Assembly: GCA_036345935.2 (NCBI GenBank)
Contig: JADWOT020000007.1
Span: 6,337,825-6,401,824, forward strand
DNA: 64,000 nt
Source: Taenia hydatigena
Lineage: Eukaryota > Platyhelminthes > Cestoda > Cyclophyllidea > Taeniidae
Direction: 5' to 3'
Part shown: in pieces, positions 15,884 through 60,429 of the stretch
Layout: each line of letters starts with the position of its first letter
How positions within the stretch are numbered: the first letter of the stretch is position 1
The notes under the pieces: model-generated
Databases searched by the model: none
The model's input: only the letters and a program-made list of their open reading frames with translations
What the model was told of the DNA's origin: nothing
Translations under genes and position numbers: made by a program

Positions 15884-16001
15884 GTTAGCGAGCATACCAA
15901 GTAGAAAGCATCAGTTCTTATCCGATCACCGAAGTTAAGCTACGCTGAGCCGGATTAGTACTTGCATGGGTAACCGGCTGGGAATACTCGGTGATGCTGG
16001 C
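15884..16001 (+). rRNA. 5S ribosomal RNA copy, full length but diverged
   Basis: The segment aligns end to end with metazoan 5S rRNA. Conserved blocks are cataccaa near the 5' end, tccgatcaccgaagttaagc in the middle, then ttagtacttgcatgggtaac and ggctgggaatac towards the 3' end. The terminal helix still forms with G-U pairs: gttagcg at the start pairs with tgctggc at the end. The internal promoter region is recognisable. Changes such as ctgagccgg in place of the usual cgtcgggc suggest divergence, and no T-run of four or more follows, so transcription and function are doubtful. It may be a dispersed 5S gene, a pseudogene or a 5S-derived SINE; no second copy is present in the window. Confidence 0.85.
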
Positions 16002-16078
16002 CCTCTATCTTTCCTCCCTTCCTACTTCCTTTCTCCCCCTCCTCCTCCTCCTGCTCTACCACCTGCCCCCTACCTACC
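16002..16078 (+). repeat. Polypyrimidine tract downstream of the 5S copy
   Basis: C/T-rich stretch with a short (cct)n run, then ccacctgccccctacc. It is roughly complementary to the purine tract 5' of the 5S copy and could form a stem or triplex-prone region around it. Confidence 0.65.
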
Positions 16079-25375: not shown

Positions 25376-25775
25376 TTAATTTAGGTACGATTTTGATAAA
25401 TCGTCCATGTTTGGTGTCAATATATAGGGGAATAAGAAGCTGCTCGATTTAATGCAAGAACGGAAGCACAAATCCAACTGCATATCAGCAGCCAACAAAG
25501 CATCAACCATATCAATTTTACCGATCCATGCGGCATGCATGAGTGGTCGGCAGCCTAGAGCGTTAGTCCGCTCAATATTCGCTCCATAGGCTATAAGAAG
25601 TTTTAAAATGTTTGCGTTATTGGAATCAACAACCAAAAAAATGAGAGCTGAGTCGGTGTCGTCAAAAAGATTAACAGCTGCACCGTGATTGAATAGGAAT
25701 CAGGCTATCTTCTCGTCACCTGATGCCACTGCTTTCCGGAGTGCAATATGTAAGTTGCCACTTAGGTTAGATTCG
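25376..25775 (-). pseudogene. Ankyrin-repeat segment with an in-frame stop
   Basis: Minus-strand translation gives consecutive ankyrin repeats. The first carries SGNLHIALRKAVASGDEKIA, a TGA stop (25700-25702), then FLFNHGAAVNLFDDTDSALI. The second has NANILKLLIAYGANIERTNA, and the third LGCRPLMHAAWIGKIDMVDA then LLAADMQLDL. Helix pairs and beta-turn spacing (about 33 residues) fit the ankyrin fold used for protein binding. The TGA stands where a leucine or tryptophan would be expected just before FL. Upstream the frame closes quickly; downstream, after DLC, the reading stops looking like ankyrin, so an exon end near 25450 is likely. It could be a pseudogene or an exon carrying one base error. 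It may be related to the ankyrin exon at 42.3-42.6 kb. Confidence 0.6.
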
Positions 25776-42619: not shown

Positions 42620-45560
42620 TCGTATAAGGGCTGTGACACTGTTGTGACGGTATTTTGCACACAAGAGCATTTAAGAAAAGGAAAGCAGAAGTCATGTGCT
42701 TTTAGCGCACCTTTTAAAGAATTGTCATCACATATGCAAAATTATCGCTACCAAAACATGAAATCTAGGGGAGTCGAAATCGGAATTATAGCGCTCTAGG
42801 CTGCTATTCGTTTTAGTGGTCAAGCCTTTGAACCGTAATGAACAAATTATGCAGTATACACCTAATTGAAGCAACCAGTGAATTGCATTCTCATCGCTGT
42901 CGCAAGCGGTCCTTAACAACACCATTCCTTCAAACTCTACATGAAATGTGGGTACTCTACCTGCCTTTTCATGATTTTTCTGAGAAAAATGCTACTGATA
43001 TATGTGTAGCAAAAATATCAAAGTAATTAGTTGATACACTTCGCGTAAAGAAAGTGCACACAAGTTTTGCTGTTGCATGCAAAAACAACCACGAAAACTA
43101 GTGCATATAAAGTTTTAATTCGTAACACTAGGACGCACAGAAGGTGTGTATGGAGTAACTTCAGTCACCTTTTAGCTTGATTACATTACAAATCGTAACA
43201 TTACTTCCCCACCTAATGTTATCTTTTCATGTCTTTGGAATTTACAAGCCAATCGAGTGGTACATTGAGTATACCTTCCATCACCATTATCACTGACCAT
43301 TGCCATGCTTAGAACAGGTGATCAGTTCAAGTGAGCCGCAAAATGCACAGCATTTTGCTACTAGTGCTTCAGAACACATAACCAGAATGAAGATGTGCCT
43401 TTAGCAATGCAACAAAGTGTATTTAAAACATTTAGTGATTTTTTCTGTAAAGCCAGGGCAGAGAGTTGCAACAACCAGATTTATTTATGAAGGTTCACCT
43501 GCATAAAAGCCATTCAGATAGCAATGTTTGTCAATAATCAATTTATAAGTGTGTTGTGCCAAATTACGTGCCCACCTTTGTGCATGTATTCAATAAGTTT
43601 TCTGATATGTCCAGACATAATTTGGTGACCATAATAGTGCAAGTCTGAAAGACTCACATGGTTGGAGCTTCTTTGCATTTGCATTTGCTCCAATCTTGCA
43701 ACATTATGTGCGGGTTTGGAGGCAGACGATATTTATGGAAATCCGACCGCTCCCTGGGCTGAGTTATGGTCCCTATTCCTTGGTGACGCATTACAACAGC
43801 GCAAGAAATAATTGCTTTCCTAAAGTAGCAGCTGTGTTGTGATGGAGATGGGCAGGGTAGACCTGCCATACATATCGCACACACAACGCTAGAAGCGACA
43901 ATGTGCCACATTTACTTGTCAGAGGGTGTTCCCGGCTATAAAATGTCACAATTTAATTATCTTTGCGGTGTAACGGTGCGTAAAATGCTGACTTCGTCTT
44001 TGTCGCTGTATCGTACACCTTGTAATACTATTGCTTTTTAGGAATGGCCTAACAGGTGAGTGGCGGTAGGACAATTTGAATCCTGTCGCGAATGAGCAGG
44101 GTAGCTCTCTGGACTTCGGGACTTCCGATTTGACTTTTCTCCCCATTACACCCATTCCTTATGCATTTCTTGCATAAATTTAAACTATTGCTCCCTAATT
44201 TTGCTCTTTCTCTTCCTTATCATACCTGTCACCTTCCATCTCCTACTTACGCCCTCCAAGTAGTTCTAGCAGTTGTGGGCTCCCATTCCTTCCTTCCTTA
44301 CCTTCTCCTCCCTTACAGCCCTGCCTCCACCGATCAAAGCAAACGCTTGCCTTTCCTTGAATCCATCCTCTTTTTCTTTCTTCCTTTTATTCACTGATCC
44401 TCTTTTAACCCACCGGTTAGCAAGAACAATAGACAAGCTTGAACAAGCCATGTGGACAGGTAGGTAGCGAGAGCGTTTCACCAACCACCGCCTTCTCTGG
44501 TCGTCATATAGTATTTGCTTGCTCACTCGTCCACTCACTCACTCACCCGCAGCATATTCAATCCATCGTTCGGTCATCGGCCTGGCAGTCAGCGAGTGGT
44601 TGGATGGATGAGTGGATGTGGATGAAGTGTGTGCGTGTGTGATAAGCTACCTGGTTGGTCCTGCCAGAACACGCCGTGATGTCAAGTGGCGCTGACACAG
44701 GCACTGCAATGAAGGCATAGTATTAGAAAGTAATGACAATATTGGGCTGGCTGGAGGATCATAAGAGCTCCTAGACACTGAATGGAGATCGTTGGTAATA
44801 AAAAGAAGGGTGACGTCGTTATTCTCTAGACAATGCGTTGTGGTAGTGCATGAGAATGTGTCTCTGCCGCCTTTCGACGAATCAAGCAATAGATAGTGCA
44901 AGATAATGGGGACAGCGTGAAGGAGCCTAAGTTTGTAATGGATGACATTAATCAGTTCTAACCCTGTAGACAAGATAAGAGCACATTTTATTAGGTGCGA
45001 TAGCATGGGTAACATTACTGAAAAGGTGGCTAATAGGAGGCAAGATTGCTTATTGTTAACAAGAGGAATGGTGCAAATGGCGCATGTGGACAGTGTGCTG
45101 CGACGGTGAATGGGTTTATACTTCTATCGAGTCTATAGACGTTAGGCAAGGAAGCAAGGAGATGGTGGAGAAAGCAAGACGGTGAGAGGTAGCGTAAAGG
45201 ATGTTGAGCTTGGGCGAAATCTTATGGTCTGCATTAATGCAGCTCAGACTATGCCTACCAGCTGCCAGTTTCACTGCTCCTAAGAGGTCATTGATGGAAA
45301 GCACAGGCAAGCAAAAAAGGGTAGAGTAAGGAGTGCAGGTCTACGGTTGGATAAAAGTGCAGCGATTATCCAAATTGCAGACTGGCATCAAACAGACTGA
45401 AACTAAGCTAATTATGCTACGTTAGGCTAGGCTAAAGCAAGCAAAAGAGACCTAAAGTCACCAAAAGCAGGATCCCTCAGAAGAGAGAAGGGGTCAATAA
45501 TGTGATTGAAAAATGTGATATTGCTATCTTGCCATTTTGTACCAATGGGAAAAATTACGA
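42620..45560. other. No supportable gene
   Basis: Low-complexity pyrimidine-rich sequence at 44200-44420 gives long but repetitive open frames on both strands. A string of tctcactc-like units lies near 44520-44545. Nothing protein-like is recognised. Confidence 0.4.
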
Positions 45561-45565
45561 CGGCT

Positions 45566-45770
45566 CGAGGACGCGCGGTTGCTGGCCCACTTTATTCATT
45601 TGTCCTTTCCTACTCCCCACCCAACATTACCCTCCTCCTCCTCCCCCCTCATTCGTGCGCCTCCTTCCCTACTCATAAGTGGCACGCCTTTACATCCATG
45701 CCACTTCTCATCACGCATCGCCCTACAACCAATGACACCATCGTCATGGCCTCTAGCTCATCCAAACAAT
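45566..45770 (+). repeat. Direct repeat, copy 1 (about 205 bp)
   Basis: Matches 46296-46499 with only scattered differences and one small indel in a (CTC)n run. It starts cgaggacgcgcggttgctgg and ends near tcatccaaacaa. The partner lies about 120 bp beyond the stop codon of the minus-strand peptide gene at 46.6-46.95 kb, so the unit may derive from the 3' flank of that gene family or be an independent repeat. Confidence 0.9.
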
Positions 45771-46090
45771 TAAGTCATCAATGTAAAGGGCTTTCATGCT
45801 TTAGCCTTTTGGTGAGCCCACCAACTGCACTGCAAATCATGCACGTCTGGATGGCCACCAGGGCATGCGTGTGAGCATGCGAGTGGAAATTGCACCGAAA
45901 CACATCAGTGTGAATGATTGTGTCAAGGTGATTGTGACTCTACGATTGGCAGGATTGGATTGCAGACGAAAGAGAACCCGCACTCATTTGCTGTGATGAT
46001 GCAGTGGATGGGTGTTTTGGCAAGTGGAAGGGAAGAAAGGGAGAGCAATGGAGTCTTGTAGATGCTCGCGACCGTGCCACGTGGTAGCCT

Positions 46091-46172
46091 CTGGTCCGCA
46101 TGCCACCATGGAGGTTGTGCTACGTTGGTGCGGGTTAGTACACATGTGGGTGACGCCAGTGGAAAGCTCGCA
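46091..46172 (+). repeat. Tandem repeat unit 1 (period about 128 bp)
   Basis: Shares with 46219-46300 the blocks tctggt, gaggt, gtgctacgt, atgcgggttagtaca or its variant, and agtggaaagc. On the minus strand both units read as the same peptide motif (C-T-N-P-H-x-R-S-T-T-S-M). Confidence 0.75.
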
Positions 46173-46218
46173 GTCGCTGGTGTGCACGCAGGCAGTGATG
46201 ATACGGCGTAGAGACCTC

Positions 46219-46300
46219 TGGTGTCCGCCCAGCCATTGAGGTGGTGCTACGTCGATGCGGGTTAGTACATGCGTGTTGGAGCATAGTGGAAAGCCCGAGG
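46219..46300 (+). repeat. Tandem repeat unit 2 (period about 128 bp)
   Basis: Second copy of the 128-bp periodic unit. It runs directly into the second copy of the 205-bp direct repeat, sharing the junction gtggaaagcccgagg. Confidence 0.75.
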
Positions 46301-46499
46301 ACGCGCGGTTGCTGGCCCACTTTATTCATTTGTCCTTTCTTACTCCCCATCCATCATCACCCTCCTCCTCCTCCCCCTCATTCGTGCGCCTCCTTCCCTA
46401 CTCATAAGTGGCACGCCTTTACACCCATGCCACTTCTCATCACGCATCGCCCTACAACCAATGATGCCATCGCCATGGCCTTAGTCTCATCCAAACAAA
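46296..46499 (+). repeat. Direct repeat, copy 2 (about 204 bp)
   Basis: Partner of 45566-45770. On the minus strand it carries AATAAA (46321-46326), about 295 bp past the stop codon of the adjacent peptide gene, which could serve as its polyadenylation signal. Confidence 0.9.
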
Positions 46500-46620
46500 T
46501 AATACAATAAGTGTGAACATAAGCACCAAATTCTAACATTCTGGCCTGATTTAACGCATTGTTAACATTGGGATTGAAACGAACCAGCTCAGGTGTTTTG
46601 TAAACTGCACTGCCATGGAA

Positions 46621-46953
46621 TCAGACAAGTGCAAACTGTCTATCAAGGGGACGAGAAGGACGAGTTGGACGCGGAATGCGTGGTCGGTATCGATCCCCGT
46701 AAGGAGGGCCACAGTCAGTTCTTCTCCAACGACTACAAGGCTTAGTTGGAATGAGGAAACCTTCGCTTTTAACATCTTCACCGAATTCACCATAAGGCTC
46801 GACCTCAATCGTGTTCGCGACCACTTTTTCACCCTCAAGGTCCGTCTTCAGCTTCAGCACTGCCTCGTCATCCATCATAATGGCGGCAAAGGCGGGTTAC
46901 GATGCGGACACGAGGAGAAGGAACGTGCATATTAGAGTCGGTAGTAGTTGCAT
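46621..46953 (-). pseudogene. Small secreted basic peptide precursor A, stop codon in leader
   Basis: Minus strand, 110 codons from ATG (46953) to TGA, interrupted only by TAA at codon 19 (46897-46899). Leader: MQLLPTLICTFLLLVSAS, stop, PAFAA, a signal peptide in form. Codons 28-64 are acidic (12 D/E against 4 K). The tail from about codon 66 is basic: KPCSRWRRTDCGPPYG, then DRYRPRIPRPTRPSRPLDRQ; two cysteines eight apart, then a run of Pro-Arg pairs. A 66-nt-distant TATA box and homology to the intact copy at 48.9 kb through promoter, leader and propiece show a true gene family. The tail resembles proline-arginine-rich host-defence peptides, but no motif proves function. Translation from the internal ATGs at codons 26-27 would lack a leader. 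It may be a pseudogene, a null allele or a base error. Confidence 0.65.
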
Positions 46954-47018
46954 GCTGTATCAATGCAGGACCGATGCTGACCAAGCGCGGAATGCTTCAC
47001 ATTCTCCTTACGCAATTA

Positions 47019-47024
47019 TTTATA
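47019..47024 (-). promoter_or_regulatory. TATA box of precursor gene A
   Basis: Minus-strand TATAAA within tctataaataatt, 66 nt from the ATG. The equivalent TATA of the paralogous gene has the same spacing. Farther upstream both share a CGAACG...GGC-GAT block, so the promoter is part of the duplicated unit. Confidence 0.65.
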
Positions 47025-47751
47025 GACTACTCTTTTTATACTTCGAAGCCAATGCTTATACTCGAACGTGGGCGGATCCAGAGAGATCAGGTTATTCATT
47101 TTACCACCTAGGTATTCTTGAGACAAGATCAAAGTGATTTGTCCCTGAGATAATGCAAGTCTGATTCGGATGCCTGGTTTATAGGCAAAAAAGTGTCGTC
47201 TAAAGAATGGCTAATATTTTCATAACAAGCAGTGGTGCATATTTCATAGGATTTTTGAGGAAAAACAAACCTATATGTCGACTTTGAGAGGGCACAAGTG
47301 GTTTAAAATGATGACATGGGCAACGAAGACGATGAGTCGGTAGAATCAAAGACATCGTGACGGCTAAGCATTTGTCAACAATTCTTTATTGCAAGTCAAC
47401 ACAAGTAATTCATTCATAACAGATCTGTGCCCACAATACCGTGATGTCTCTTCGCCGTGCATCGGTTTGCTGCAAATTAAAAATTAAATGCGCAAGCCAT
47501 ATAGAGATATGATTTCATCCCTTTCGATGTCCTTTGCACGGGGATTTCTCATCTCTAATTGGGATGAGCTAAATTCTTGCAATACTGGCAATGGAAATTA
47601 ATAGTTTAAAAGCAAATGCTTAACTCGGTTGTCAGCAGGAGTTTCGATTACGAATTGAAGTCTAGCAATGTGACAGCTCATCTTTTTTATCCCGGAGGAC
47701 CTCACTGCGCTGCCACTCATCCTTCATCGTTAATCCTTTAAGCACTTTAAG

Positions 47752-48324
47752 TTGACAGTGGCATCATGACTTAGTTTCCACAATTTAGATCACCAAGGCA
47801 GCAGATTGCATTTGTCTGCAATTAGTCCTCCGGATAATTGGCCTTAGGCTCATAAAATATTTCCTGCATGAACTTCTGGTCCCAGACACGCAATTATTGG
47901 CTCTACTGTACGCATTCGTTGGGTGACTACTCTGCTTATGCACTTAGAGACTACAATCACTACCGCCCCTGGCCCATCGTTAGCACTATTGTAGAGGACG
48001 CTGAAGTAGTATAGAAGCTGATCATGCGGACATCTTCATCCAAAAAGTGGTGATCAGAACGGTCTGTAGGGGAGGTCAAAGCGTAAGGTGGGCCTAAGAA
48101 AAATGAGGGAAGAGAGGTGTATTTGCGCTAACTGGGTCTCATTGCTTTCGATGGGGAGTCGTTAGGCATCTCCAAAGAACCCACAGGAAACTTCGACGTC
48201 ATTCAAGACCTACTCGTATCCATCTGTAAACATAAAATTCAAACAATGTCAGCCTTTAAAATACCGAGCTGCACCATTTATAATGCATTTAAATGGTTCA
48301 GAGTTTGGCTTATTTTGGTCCGTC
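47752..48324 (+). repeat. Inverted repeat, left arm
   Basis: Reverse complement of 59856-60424. Over 47880-48324 (445 bp) I count two mismatches (near 48253 and 48282). Over the outer part, 47752-47880, identity falls to roughly 80 percent with small indels. Similarity ends sharply at 48324/59856. No protein family is evident in the arm and I see no terminal inverted repeats or target-site duplication. A plus-strand open frame (48246-48635) crosses the arm's inner boundary and is therefore unlikely to be a real gene. Confidence 0.95.
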
Positions 48325-48726
48325 TTGAATATTTTAGTAGAGCCAGCCTCACTTTTGCCCGATGGGTAATTGCATGCACCAAAACCACTTTTTCTGCAAT
48401 AAGTCTTGCTAACCTGCCATCCATGCCTCAATTTTTGCTTTCCAAGTACTTCAAGTGGACGGTGGTTTGTGTCACAAGTTCTGCGGTTTACTTCGCCAAA
48501 GCAACGGATCTCTTTCTTACACTCTTTGGCGATTCGTTCAGTACTGATGGACCCTCTGTAACTGTCGTCAAATTATTTTATATTTCCATCTATCTATTTT
48601 ACTCATTCTTCCCTCTCCCTTCCATTAAGTGCTAGAGCACACGTCAAAAATTCCTATTTAATTGCGAAATTCACTATTGTCATTTTCTGGAACTGCATAA
48701 TTAAAACATAACGATTTAAGGCCAAC

Positions 48727-48732
48727 TTTATT
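48727..48732 (-). terminator. Polyadenylation signal for precursor gene B
   Basis: Minus-strand AATAAA (ctctttaataaagttgg), about 185 nt after the stop codon of gene B, a reasonable distance for a short 3' UTR. Confidence 0.5.
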
Positions 48733-48917
48733 AAAGAGAGTTCTTAGGAAGAGATACAGCATTACAACTACTAAGTTAACTTATTACAACGGTAAATGAA
48801 ATACTAAATTTTAGTACTGCGGCTTTTCACAGCATCGCACGATAAAGTATGAAGCACAGCAGATCCACTCGGCTATACTGCAGGATAAATGGCATGTAAT
48901 CAAGCAAGAACAAGTGG

Positions 48918-49175
48918 TCAATGACGAAATAGGATCGGAAAGCATCGAGCCTTTGTGAATTTACGATCGTAGACACATCTGCGTCTTACTGGAAGACGAC
49001 GAAACCCAACCACGTCCTCGATTACGTCTTCACCCTTTGAAAGGTCTGATAAGTCGGGAAGGTCTGCCTCGAACCTCAGCACAGCCTTGTCAGTCGCCAA
49101 AGACGCGGGAAAGGTAGGGTGTGAAGTGAAGACGAGGAGAAGAACCATGCAGACTAGATTTGACAATGAACACAT
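48918..49175 (-). CDS. Small secreted basic peptide precursor B, intact
   Basis: Minus strand, ATG at 49175, 85 codons, uninterrupted. Residues 1-24 form a signal peptide (MCSLSNLVCMVLLLVFTSH, PTFPA). Residues 28-57 are acidic (EADLPDLSDLSKGEDVIEDV; nine D/E, three K/R). Residues 58-85 are strongly basic: FRRLPVRRRCVYDRKF, TKARCFPILFRH, about ten K/R against one D, with cysteines 67 and 78 able to form one disulfide and a hairpin. Basic clusters at 59-60 and 64-66 could be processing sites. Leader + acidic propiece + cationic disulfide tail is typical of antimicrobial or venom-like peptide precursors; I infer a secreted effector or defence peptide, not proved. It has a TATA box, a poly(A) signal and no need for introns. 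A paralog lies 2.2 kb downstream in transcript sense. No known family recognised. Confidence 0.65.
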   Translation of the reverse strand: MCSLSNLVCMVLLLVFTSHPTFPASLATDKAVLRFEADLPDLSDLSKGEDVIEDVVGFRRLPVRRRCVYDRKFTKARCFPILFRH

Positions 49176-49240
49176 GCTGTATTAATGCAGAGCTGATGCT
49201 GGTTGTGTAGAGGATGCTTTGCGCACCCTCTACGTGGTAC

Positions 49241-49246
49241 TTTATA
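49241..49246 (-). promoter_or_regulatory. TATA box of precursor gene B
   Basis: Minus-strand TATAAA in aatgcctataaagtacc, 66 nt from the ATG, matching the spacing in the paralogous gene. Transcription start is predicted about 30 nt downstream, giving a short 5' UTR that contains the shared ctgcattaatacagc (gene A: ctgcattgatacagc) right before ATG. Confidence 0.7.
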
Positions 49247-49454
49247 GGCATTTCGATAGGTTTTTATATCTTTCAATCACAATGTTTACTTTCGAACGGA
49301 GGCAGATGTACGGAATCGGTATACCCTCCCACCATTTGGCTAATCATGCAATCAATTCATAACGTGTTGCTACACCAACCATGAAAACCTTATTAAAATA
49401 GGCCTAGATGGCCTGATTCGTTACTCCGAACTAATATTGCACATCACGTCGCAT

Positions 49455-50664: not shown

Positions 50665-50911
50665 CAGTGGGCAGGGTTTTAATGATTCCGTGGTATATTT
50701 CGGCAATGCTCTTATTTGTCATCACGTCCACAAACACCTCATATCGAGTGTTGGCCTCCAACCCCTCAAGAGTGAGTTGCCCCCGTGAGAACTCTACTTT
50801 TTGACTCTTGAGTAAGGGAGGACGCGAAGTTGTGACCGCACTCAGTCTAATCTGATTCGCGTATTGTTCACCCAGCTCTTGCACATCCCATACTAACGTA
50901 ATAGTGTTTGA
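50665..50911 (-). CDS. Fibronectin type III exon, oncosphere-antigen-like
   Basis: Minus strand; starts after an AG shared with the decayed copy (borders 50911) and ends at a good donor (ACTG|gtgagc, below 50665): 82 codons plus one base. Product: SNTITLVWDVQELGEQYANQ, IRLSAVTTSRPPLLKSQKVE, FSRGQLTLEGLEANTRYEVF, VDVMTNKSIAEIYHGIIKTL. The B-strand tryptophan, the L-x-x-L-x-x-x-T-x-Y-x-V-x-V core and the closing T-L-P-T define a complete FnIII domain. A lone FnIII domain on one exon with W-D/E-V-Q near the start and F-S-x-G-Q-L-T before the core is the layout of tapeworm EG95/45W oncosphere antigens, secreted or membrane-anchored larval surface proteins. FnIII is firm; the antigen family is inferred. 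Leader and tail exons were not identified. Confidence 0.65.
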
Positions 50912-50989
50912 CTCCGTGCATCACAATTGGAAGTGTGCAGGAAGTGGGTTCTTTACTTTGATTGCATCTTCTGCAAACAAGAAAGATAC

Positions 50990-53900
50990 ATCCTGGTTAG
51001 CAAAAATGTTGCGGTTATTATTAGTCACTTAGAAAGGGAATCATTGAACCCCTTCTGCTTTAACAATGACAGAAGTAGTTCTAAGAGATATGATTACTCA
51101 TTAATAATCTTTAAAATGCAAGAATTAATTCGCATGACCCCCTAAGGACAAGTGTTCGTGATTATTAGCCCATGGTAGATGAGTTTGAACTAGGATAAAA
51201 TCATGATACATCTGAGGTAGGAATGTGGCCTCAACGAATGTTTAGTTAATGCGTTTAATTCGCATGACATGCTAGTCATTTGCTATCAAATGCCACTGCC
51301 AATTAGCTTGAATTCAGCAAACTTTAAACAGTGGGTAGAAAATGTAGAGAGAAACTTAAGGGAATGCGGACGCGAGGAACGTAATTGACCATAGCGCTTC
51401 GATTAAGAAGAACGGAAGCAATCAATCGGTGTAGGTGATGCACAAACGCTGGTCATTTTTAAATAGAAGAATGCGACTCACCACCCAGTCCTAAATGGCC
51501 CATCGCCAAGAGTAAAATTGCCGGCAGCATAAGGTAGAGATGAAAAGACATCGTCAACGAAGGATTGAATTAGGGCCCAAAATCATATGGTATTTATAGC
51601 ATTGAGCACTATTATACCAGCCTATCAAATGTATGTCCTTGAATTGCACGGCGACTCCACCATGCACACTGTAGCTGGTTGTGAAATGGCGTGCTGCTGT
51701 ATGGTTGTAAATCAATAGCCTGCTACTACATGCGTTATCATCATAATGCACAGACGCAAAGATTGGAGTGACGTGTAAGGCCCAATTACGCCATGAGTCG
51801 CAAGTTGACCTTCTTGTCAGTGGCGGGAGAAATGCTATGATGACTAGGCACCTTTGAGACATAAAGTCAAATATGAAAGCACAACTTAAAGGCGAACGTC
51901 CCTGCAGTATTAGCTAAAAGGTGTAAAAGCCTTCTTTGTCCCAACACTACATCTAGCAATTTCATGTAAGTGTGCAAAAAAATGATTTCCAGATAAAGAA
52001 ATGCGAGGAGGCAATGCTTGATAAAAGAGCAGCCCCAAAAAGGATTTAGTTGATGATACCTGTCCTTTTAAACCCCATAGTAGTCAACGATATAAGGTAA
52101 TAAATGAGAAATATGCGTAGAAATAGGCGGTAGACAAAAAAAAGATGTGTAAAGGCATTCAAAACTAGGACAACAATCTATTGACAGATCCGCAACGTTA
52201 GCTCAGCCGCAGTAACCGACACCGAGAGAAGTGGACTTTGACTAACGAAAGCGTATGACTCACTTTACCTTAATTTTCGATTCACCATGCAATCTGAAAT
52301 GCAATGCGATGGACTTTGATGCTACAGCATAAATTGTCTTCCATCAACATGCGCTCATAATGGTTGGAAGAGAGGTATGGCTTTCTCATTCGTCCTTACT
52401 ACCGCCTTGATGCACACCAGCGCATTATGTGCTGTGAGTTGAAATCGGGCGAAACAACACTTAATTAATGTTAAAACGTGCCTAAACCCTCAGCGCCTTA
52501 CGCAATAATATGAAAATTAATGCATAAATATGTGGAATAAGCCTAAACTTCAGTTATAGATATTTAGTTCTATTTAACGATATAGAAAGGTATTGGAGCA
52601 CTGTCAAGTTTGCCGCATCTAGGCTGCGATGGTGCGAGTTTCCATGGATGGAAGATGAGCGAACTTAGGCCGAATGAGCGAAATTAGGCCCTATCTGGGT
52701 GGACAACCTACCCCGTCCTACTAATTTTACGCGGCACCAAATGTGTTGGATTTCGCAAAAACCTGCTGAAGTTTTATTTTTCCATTACGCTCAACACTCC
52801 ACCTGCAGAATTTCACCATTTGCTTGCACCTTCAACCTCGCACCGGTCTGTCAATTATGGGTGTAGGGGTCAGCAATGCCACAACTTGTAAGTGACCAAT
52901 CATTGTGGGGGGTCAATCTTGACCGCATTGATGGCATATGATAGTCCTCTGTTCTGACACCAAACATCTTACCCATCGCAGTGCATTTGTGCATGATGTT
53001 GTGAGATTCTAGTAGAGACGAGTGCTTGTATTGATTGCGTCGGTCTGTTGGTATTATCTGGATAATCTTCATTTAGGTAGCATCTAAGTTGATGCATCTG
53101 GGTCCATCTTCTTCTTTTTCTTCACGATTCCCTCTTCTGTTGGCATAGGTTGACCCGGTACATCTGAACAACCGAACTCAGGCCAGCCTTTTGAACTGGA
53201 ATGCATACACGACTGTCCACTCCCAGTCTGACTGTGTCTAGTTCGCAGTGGCTTTTAGTTGGGTGAGAAATGAGGTCGAGACGATTAGAATTGCCAACGT
53301 TGGTGTCCAAACTCCGCACTCGCAATTAAGGGTCGAAACAGTAGCTCATGCTTAACATGGGTCCCCCAGAATCGCATAGACAAGATTGCCCCGCAGGCAC
53401 CGATTTGTTACCAGAATTGACCGGTGAAATGGTAGTCCACTATGATGGAAAAACAGCATCATCTAGCACGCCCTAGCTGCACTTTAATGCAGTTTTACGT
53501 GAATCCACACACAAAGGCATTTCTTCGAGCCTTATTTTACTCTCCCTCGAAGTCGTCATCACGAGATGGATTAATTTAACCTGAAACTTATTTGCCTAGC
53601 ACATTTCCCAGTTGCTTCAATAGTTTGACTTTACGTCGAAAAGGGACATGGAATCTGTGCTGACGAGGAGGGATGTGGTCAACTTGTGTGAAGGACTTAA
53701 GCCTCAACGACATGTATATGCCTGCGCGCCTACGATACATGGAACAATTCGACCAACAATTCTTCGCCCATGGCTGCTAATCAAAGAGTTGAGCATCTAA
53801 ACTATGGTGGATTAAAACCAATTCGATTTCCCAAATAAAAGTTGCATTTTTGATTCAAACAAAACAACGTGTGAGAATTGTCTCTTCAATGAGGCACTCA

Positions 53901-59855: not shown

Positions 59856-60424
59856 GACGGACCAAAATAAGCCAAACTCTGAACCATTTAAATGCATCAT
59901 AAATGGTGCAGCTCGGTATTTTAAATGCTGACATTGTTTGAATTTTATGTTTACAGATGGATACGAGTAGGTCTTGAATGACGTCGAAGTTTCCTGTGGG
60001 TTCTTTGGAGATGCCTAACGACTCCCCATCGAAAGCAATGAGACCCAGTTAGCGCAAATACACCTCTCTTCCCTCATTTTTCTTAGGCCCACCTTACGCT
60101 TTGACCTCCCCTACAGACCGTTCTGATCACCACTTTTTGGATGAAGATGTCCGCATGATCAGCTTCTATACTACTTCAGCGTCCTCTACAATAGTGCTAA
60201 CGATGGGCCAGGGGCGGTAGTGATTGTAGTCTCTAAGTGCATAAGCAGAGTAGTCACCCAACGAATGCGTACAGTAGAGCCAATAATTGCGTGTCTGGGA
60301 ACAGACGTTCATGCGGCAAATATTTTGTGTGCCTGATGCCCTTTACCCGGAGGACTAATTGCAGGCAAACGCAATCTCCTGCCTTGATGAACTAAATTGT
60401 AAACTAAGTTATGACGTTACTGTC
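59856..60424 (-). repeat. Inverted repeat, right arm
   Basis: Reverse complement of 47752-48324; the inner 445 bp (59856-60300) are almost identical and the outer about 125 bp diverged. The 11.5 kb between the arms holds precursor gene B, the FnIII exons and the duplicated exon pair; gene A lies just outside the left arm. Confidence 0.95.
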
Positions 60425-60429
60425 AAAAC

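Follow-up and report, generated by a model that had tools for sequence, protein, structure and literature searches.

The closest described counterparts of the locus reported here are small secreted peptides of cestodes and other flatworms. Three cationic peptides with two cysteines each, mesco-1, mesco-2 and mesco-3, were reported from Mesocestoides corti in 2024, with charges of +11 to +13 (PMC11546468). As described in the text of that report, several of the mesco genes are homologous, a signal peptide served as a selection criterion, and introns are absent from two of the three, these being mesco-1 and mesco-2 if the order of the text is followed (PMC11546468). Mesco-2 kills bacteria, with MIC values of 0.5-2 uM over the six strains listed there and 0.5 uM for E. 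coli (PMC11546468). A catalogue published in 2023 lists over 16,000 AMP-like peptides of helminths and includes fAMP-LP-5, an antibacterial peptide from three Taenia species that is termed the first cestode AMP; according to the same text, flatworms are reported without three main lophotrochozoan antimicrobial groups (PMC10414684).

A further described system is the eg95 gene family, in which exon 1 codes for the signal peptide and exon 2 for most of the Fn3 domain. In the published eg95 alignment these exons occupy sites 5-74 and 699-1004, corresponding to 70 and 306 nt (PMC2671473). Broken members of the family are on record in the eg95 texts, namely eg95-7, which is a pseudogene, and an E. 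vogeli eg95 gene with a stop in exon 1, and expression of the four E. granulosus Eg95 genes is described as peaking in activated oncospheres (PMC2671473; PMC8894454).

The window analyzed here, that is the whole stretch of DNA under study, comprises 64,000 nt of the Taenia hydatigena genome (GenBank assembly GCA_036345935.2, contig JADWOT020000007.1). It contains two related units on the minus strand, here called copy 1 and copy 2, whose ATGs at 49175 and 46953 are separated by 2222 bp, in agreement with the 2.2 kb given in a first-pass annotation of this DNA. The coordinates of the units, of their flanking elements and of a neighboring gene with a fibronectin type III (FnIII) domain are collected in Table 1.

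Table 1. Features of the peptide locus and of the neighboring FnIII gene (positions in the window).
Feature	Position	Strand	Details
eg95-like FnIII gene	50665..51551	minus	exon 1 51551-51482, intron 511 nt, exon 2 50970-50665
Copy 1 5' region	49176..49330	minus	TATAAA at 49268 and 49246; 5'UTR block 49176-49201 common with copy 2
Copy 1	48918..49175	minus	open 85-aa frame; leader, acidic propiece and basic two-cysteine tail
AATAAA, poly(A)-signal-like	48727..48732	minus	about 185 nt past copy 1 stop; consensus match only
Copy 2 5' region	46954..47110	minus	TATAAA at 47040 and 47024; common 5'UTR block 46954-46979
Copy 2	46621..46953	minus	homologous ATG to final stop; leader interrupted by in-frame TAA
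In-frame TAA, codon 19 of copy 2	46897..46899	minus	inside leader, splits leader from propiece and tail
AATAAA, poly(A)-signal-like	46321..46326	minus	about 295 nt past copy 2 end; consensus match only

Copy 1 runs from its ATG to a stop at 48918 as a single open frame of 85 codons, below 200 aa, and two TATAAA motifs lie at -93 and -71 relative to the ATG. Its leader, extending from residue 1 to about residue 27 (the cleavage site is approximate), is hydrophobic: among the 74 first-ATG ORFs of at least 60 aa in the window, the N-terminus of copy 1 ranks first, with a Kyte-Doolittle value of 3.58 against 2.96 for the runner-up. The leader is followed by a propiece (residues 28-56) with a net charge of -6 and by a tail (residues 57-85) with a net charge of +9, in which two cysteines are spaced as C-X10-C. 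A cationic stretch accompanied by two C-terminal cysteines, as in the mesco peptides, is present in this copy. Exactly two cysteines together with a net charge of at least +7 over the last 30 residues are found in one of the 136 first-ATG ORFs of 50-150 aa, which is copy 1 itself, these thresholds having been chosen post hoc once copy 1 was known. The openness of the frame, which has 0 stops where shuffles average 2.8, is weakly above chance (p 0.048), and donor-like sites are present within the tail.

In copy 2, the leader and the portion holding propiece and tail do not form one frame, and the frame at 46621-46878 begins past the TAA and has no leader. This post-stop frame carries 12 acidic residues, with a propiece of net charge -8 and a tail of net charge +8, where two cysteines spaced as C-X7-C are followed by a Pro/Arg-rich end. 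The first-pass annotation had counted 9 and 12 acidic residues in the middles of the two units and assigned net charges of about +8 to +9 to their tails, and both sets of values are reproduced on the translations. It had also described a hydrophobic leader joined to the propiece, and with it an antimicrobial-type precursor architecture, in both units; this is correct for copy 1, but copy 2 lacks it as one protein on account of the stop in its leader, which had gone unreported. The TATAAA motifs of copy 2 are located at -87 and -71 relative to its ATG. With 1 stop against a shuffle mean of 5.1 (p 0.027), its openness is again weakly above chance, and several other frames at this place are likewise fairly open (1, 4, and 12 stops in the sense frames; 3, 2, and 4 on the opposite strand). 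As candidates for an intron skipping the stop, 17 frame-keeping GT-AG pairs were considered, with a best donor score of 4/6, and none of the best 8 of the 17 was convincing. Downstream of copy 2 lies a direct repeat of about 211 bp, 94% identical between 45563-45773 and 46293-46502.

Judged from sequence comparison, the two copies are true paralogues. A blastn search of the copy 1 unit against the window returned copy 2 at E 9.5e-10, in a match 143 bp long and 68.5% identical that reaches from the 5'UTR through the leader into the start of the propiece and ends near codon 39, and in the translated comparison 56 copy 1 residues could be aligned at 37.5% identity with a gap of 7 codons between the propieces, a length that keeps the frame (E 7e-6). 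A 29-nt pattern covering 5'UTR and ATG, derived from the pair itself, occurs at two places in the window, both at the copies, and in none of 100 shuffles. Common to the copies are the 5' region and the leader, together with the propiece once the gap is allowed for; of the promoter, leader and acidic propiece which had earlier been described as shared, the TATAAA motifs with the 5' block and the leader stand as stated, and the propiece does so only in gapped form. The tails, each short and cationic with two cysteines, are divergent as previously claimed, and their best local alignment does not exceed chance, 557 of 2000 shuffles scoring at least as high; for this reason, the resemblance of the cysteine pairs by eye is not evidence of homology. 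No third copy was found within the window, the next tblastn matches among those listed having E values of 1.7 and 1.4. Between copies 1 and 2 sits one member (47752-48324) of an inverted repeat pair whose other member is at 59856-60426; the two are 95.8% identical over 573 bp, have sharp ends starting TTGACAGT, and are perhaps a mobile or dispersed repeat.

Codons 1-39 of the two copies differ at 18 first, 9 second and 14 third positions. Few changes at the second position would be expected of a hydrophobic leader under constraint, yet they come without an excess at third positions. In frame, dN/dS comes to about 0.50 and 7% of bootstraps have pN/pS of at least 1; out-of-frame controls gave about 0.41 when shifted by one base and about 1.8 when shifted by two. 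Since the one-base-shifted ratio is no higher, the in-frame dN/dS is not proof of coding constraint.

The FnIII gene lies upstream of copy 1 and is distinct from the peptide pair. Its exon 1 of 70 nt and its exon 2 of 306 nt are identical in length to those of the eg95 family, which supports the flatworm and FnIII-antigen setting proposed by the first-pass annotation and makes a taeniid-type cestode the most likely source. Exon 2 is interrupted by an in-frame TGA, so that no intact frame through three exons was found, and in the one candidate examined for exon 3 the frame was not continued. A second exon-2-like piece, truncated, is found just downstream of the gene at 50237-50142 on the minus strand. 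The Pfam fn3 match is weak, at E 0.0091 and with 16.6 bits where the cut-off is 25, and by sequence the PDB gave fibronectin at E 0.41. Elsewhere in the window, a full-length match to 5S rRNA (Rfam RF00001, 76.4 bits) is located at 15884-16002 on the plus strand and an exon with ankyrin repeats (Pfam Ank_2, E 2e-8) at 25376-25699 on the minus strand.

Protein searches retrieved one candidate for copy 1 via common words, with none at E <=1, and nine candidates when both frames were aligned, likewise with none. For the neighboring FnIII frame there were three candidates, none of them at E <=0.1, and because this antigen frame is matchless too, the lack of protein matches says little on novelty, as cestode proteins may be scarce in the database. 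Neither copy 1 nor the copy 2 frame matched any Pfam family or, by sequence, any PDB entry, and 79 pattern matches in prokaryote contigs and 11 in viral contigs included no relatives. Among the papers listed by topic searches of the literature, none was recognized as dealing with this peptide pair, and copy 1 may already be among the more than 16,000 catalogued peptides (PMC10414684). AlphaFold2 run without an alignment placed a leader helix at residues 4-18 of copy 1 and strands at 65-70 and 75-80 flanking the cysteines, with a mean pLDDT of 58.6 overall, 64 in the block 61-70 and 71 in the block 71-80. The predicted model is weakly compatible with a disulfide hairpin, and a fold search with it returned 19 matches, the best at E 5 (PDB), none of which was meaningful. 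The copy 2 frame was modeled without any strand or any helix of at least 4 residues (pTM 0.13).

The explanation we tentatively prefer, and to which we give slightly less than an even chance, takes copy 1 as an intact gene, probably of one exon, that encodes a secreted precursor of antimicrobial type, and copy 2, as assembled, as an old degenerate tandem paralogue of it. In such a gene, a short mRNA would be driven by the TATA promoter, and the leader would direct the nascent chain into the ER and then be removed. The acidic propiece (net -6) would neutralize the basic tail (net +9) and keep it harmless, and a proprotein convertase would be expected to cleave near the RR and RRR sites of copy 1. 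The freed peptide of 25-29 residues may form one disulfide through C-X10-C, perhaps as a beta-hairpin, and could bind anionic bacterial membranes. Copy 1 could also be a relic because two genes of the neighborhood carry stops. That the whole block is decaying, with both peptide frames being untranslated relics like the FnIII gene and copy 1 being open by chance, is rather unlikely, although it would account for the stop in copy 2, the stop in FnIII exon 2 and the truncated second FnIII piece, and the openness of copy 1 at just p 0.048 and a dN/dS that shifting the frame by one base does not raise speak on the same side. Under decay, however, one would not expect the leader of copy 1 to be the most hydrophobic of 74 ORFs, the propiece gap to be a whole number of codons, or changes to be fewest at codon position 2 (9 of 39, with 18 and 14 at positions 1 and 3). 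It is less probable still that one cassette of promoter, leader and propiece has been reused while the mature tail was replaced or diversified between tandem copies, giving a peptide arsenal to which copy 1 contributes a C-X10-C hairpin and copy 2 a C-X7-C loop with a Pro/Arg-rich end, the latter working in other alleles or worms with an open leader. Were this true, the region would be a diversifying defense-peptide locus adjoining oncosphere antigen genes.

The tails would also be unalignable if the gene had several exons, with leader and propiece making up the first and the tails being intron sequence. A GTGAA donor-like site does occur in both copies at equivalent positions, nt 142 of copy 1 and nt 121 of copy 2, scoring 4/6 to GTRAGT in each case; deeper inside there are better sites scoring 5/6, at nt 186 and 211 of copy 1 and at nt 163 of copy 2. 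We nevertheless consider this arrangement improbable: blastn of 46980-48917 against 44000-46620 disclosed no common downstream exon, its one match being 15 bp long with E 0.63, and comparison of the same regions after translation, with sense-frame pieces of at least 20 aa, gave one match at E 0.06. In addition, an AATAAA is found less than 190 nt past copy 1, and two of the three mesco genes are described as intronless (PMC11546468). Marginally less probable than a multi-exon gene is an action of the tail peptide on the host, as an immune or tissue effector from the invasive larva comparable to the adjoining EG95-type antigen genes; the eg95-like exon structure of the neighbor and the highest expression reported for the four E. 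granulosus Eg95 genes in activated oncospheres point that way, but neighborhood is weak evidence for a common function and the FnIII gene is itself interrupted. Copy 1 further shares with single-disulfide neuropeptide or peptide-hormone precursors a leader, dibasic sites and a two-cysteine peptide, and yet such an identity is very improbable, as inspection of the translation by eye reveals neither a Gly directly ahead of a basic pair nor a repeated peptide, and there is no Pfam match. It is, moreover, unlike hormones for paralogues to carry different, strongly basic tails.

The nonsense codons in copy 2 and in the FnIII gene suggest turnover of the locus, and they caution against counting both copies as working genes. 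The mesco peptides, which derive from small secreted precursors (PMC11546468), resemble the predicted copy 1 peptide in being short, cationic, two-cysteine cestode peptides, and mesco-1 resembles copy 2 in a Pro/Arg-rich stretch past the cysteines. They differ in cysteine spacing, which is C-X3-C in the mesco peptides against C-X10-C in copy 1 and C-X7-C in copy 2, and mesco-2 has a long part, predicted as helical, ahead of its cysteines, in contrast to both copies. This comparison concerns mature peptides, the mesco text as consulted printing no full precursor and describing no acidic propiece. When the two tails were aligned with the three mesco peptides (six pairs), between 201 and 1566 of 2000 shuffles reached the observed score, while the positive controls gave 4 of 2000 for mesco-1 with mesco-2 and 0 of 2000 for mesco-2 with mesco-3.

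The peptides fAMP-LP-5 and fAMP-LP-17 are, like the putative copy 1 peptide, cationic products of small secreted flatworm prepropeptides, and the precursor of fAMP-LP-5 holds another peptide that is not predicted to be antimicrobial (PMC10414684). As printed, both are without cysteine and show no significant similarity to the tails of copies 1 and 2: in the four pairs, 128 to 1678 of 2000 shuffles were as good, and whole frames compared with the four printed flatworm fAMP-LP peptides (eight pairs) gave 120 to 998 of 1000. A start consisting of an aromatic residue or Leu, then RR, then Ile or Leu is common to copy 1, the mesco peptides and fAMP-LP-17, a loose likeness seen by eye. With mature tails not significantly similar, the likeness of copies 1 and 2 to the mesco and fAMP-LP families would be one of design. 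The description of the pair as an undescribed-looking family is only half right, two-cysteine cestode peptides (PMC11546468) and a Taenia peptide (PMC10414684) having already been published. The design is one already known in cestodes, and copy 1 is probably a new example of it rather than of a new kind. Few cestode peptides have been tested in the literature consulted, and another two-cysteine precursor, with a spacing different from that of the mesco peptides and a tail that is a cheap, synthesizable candidate, would widen this small set.
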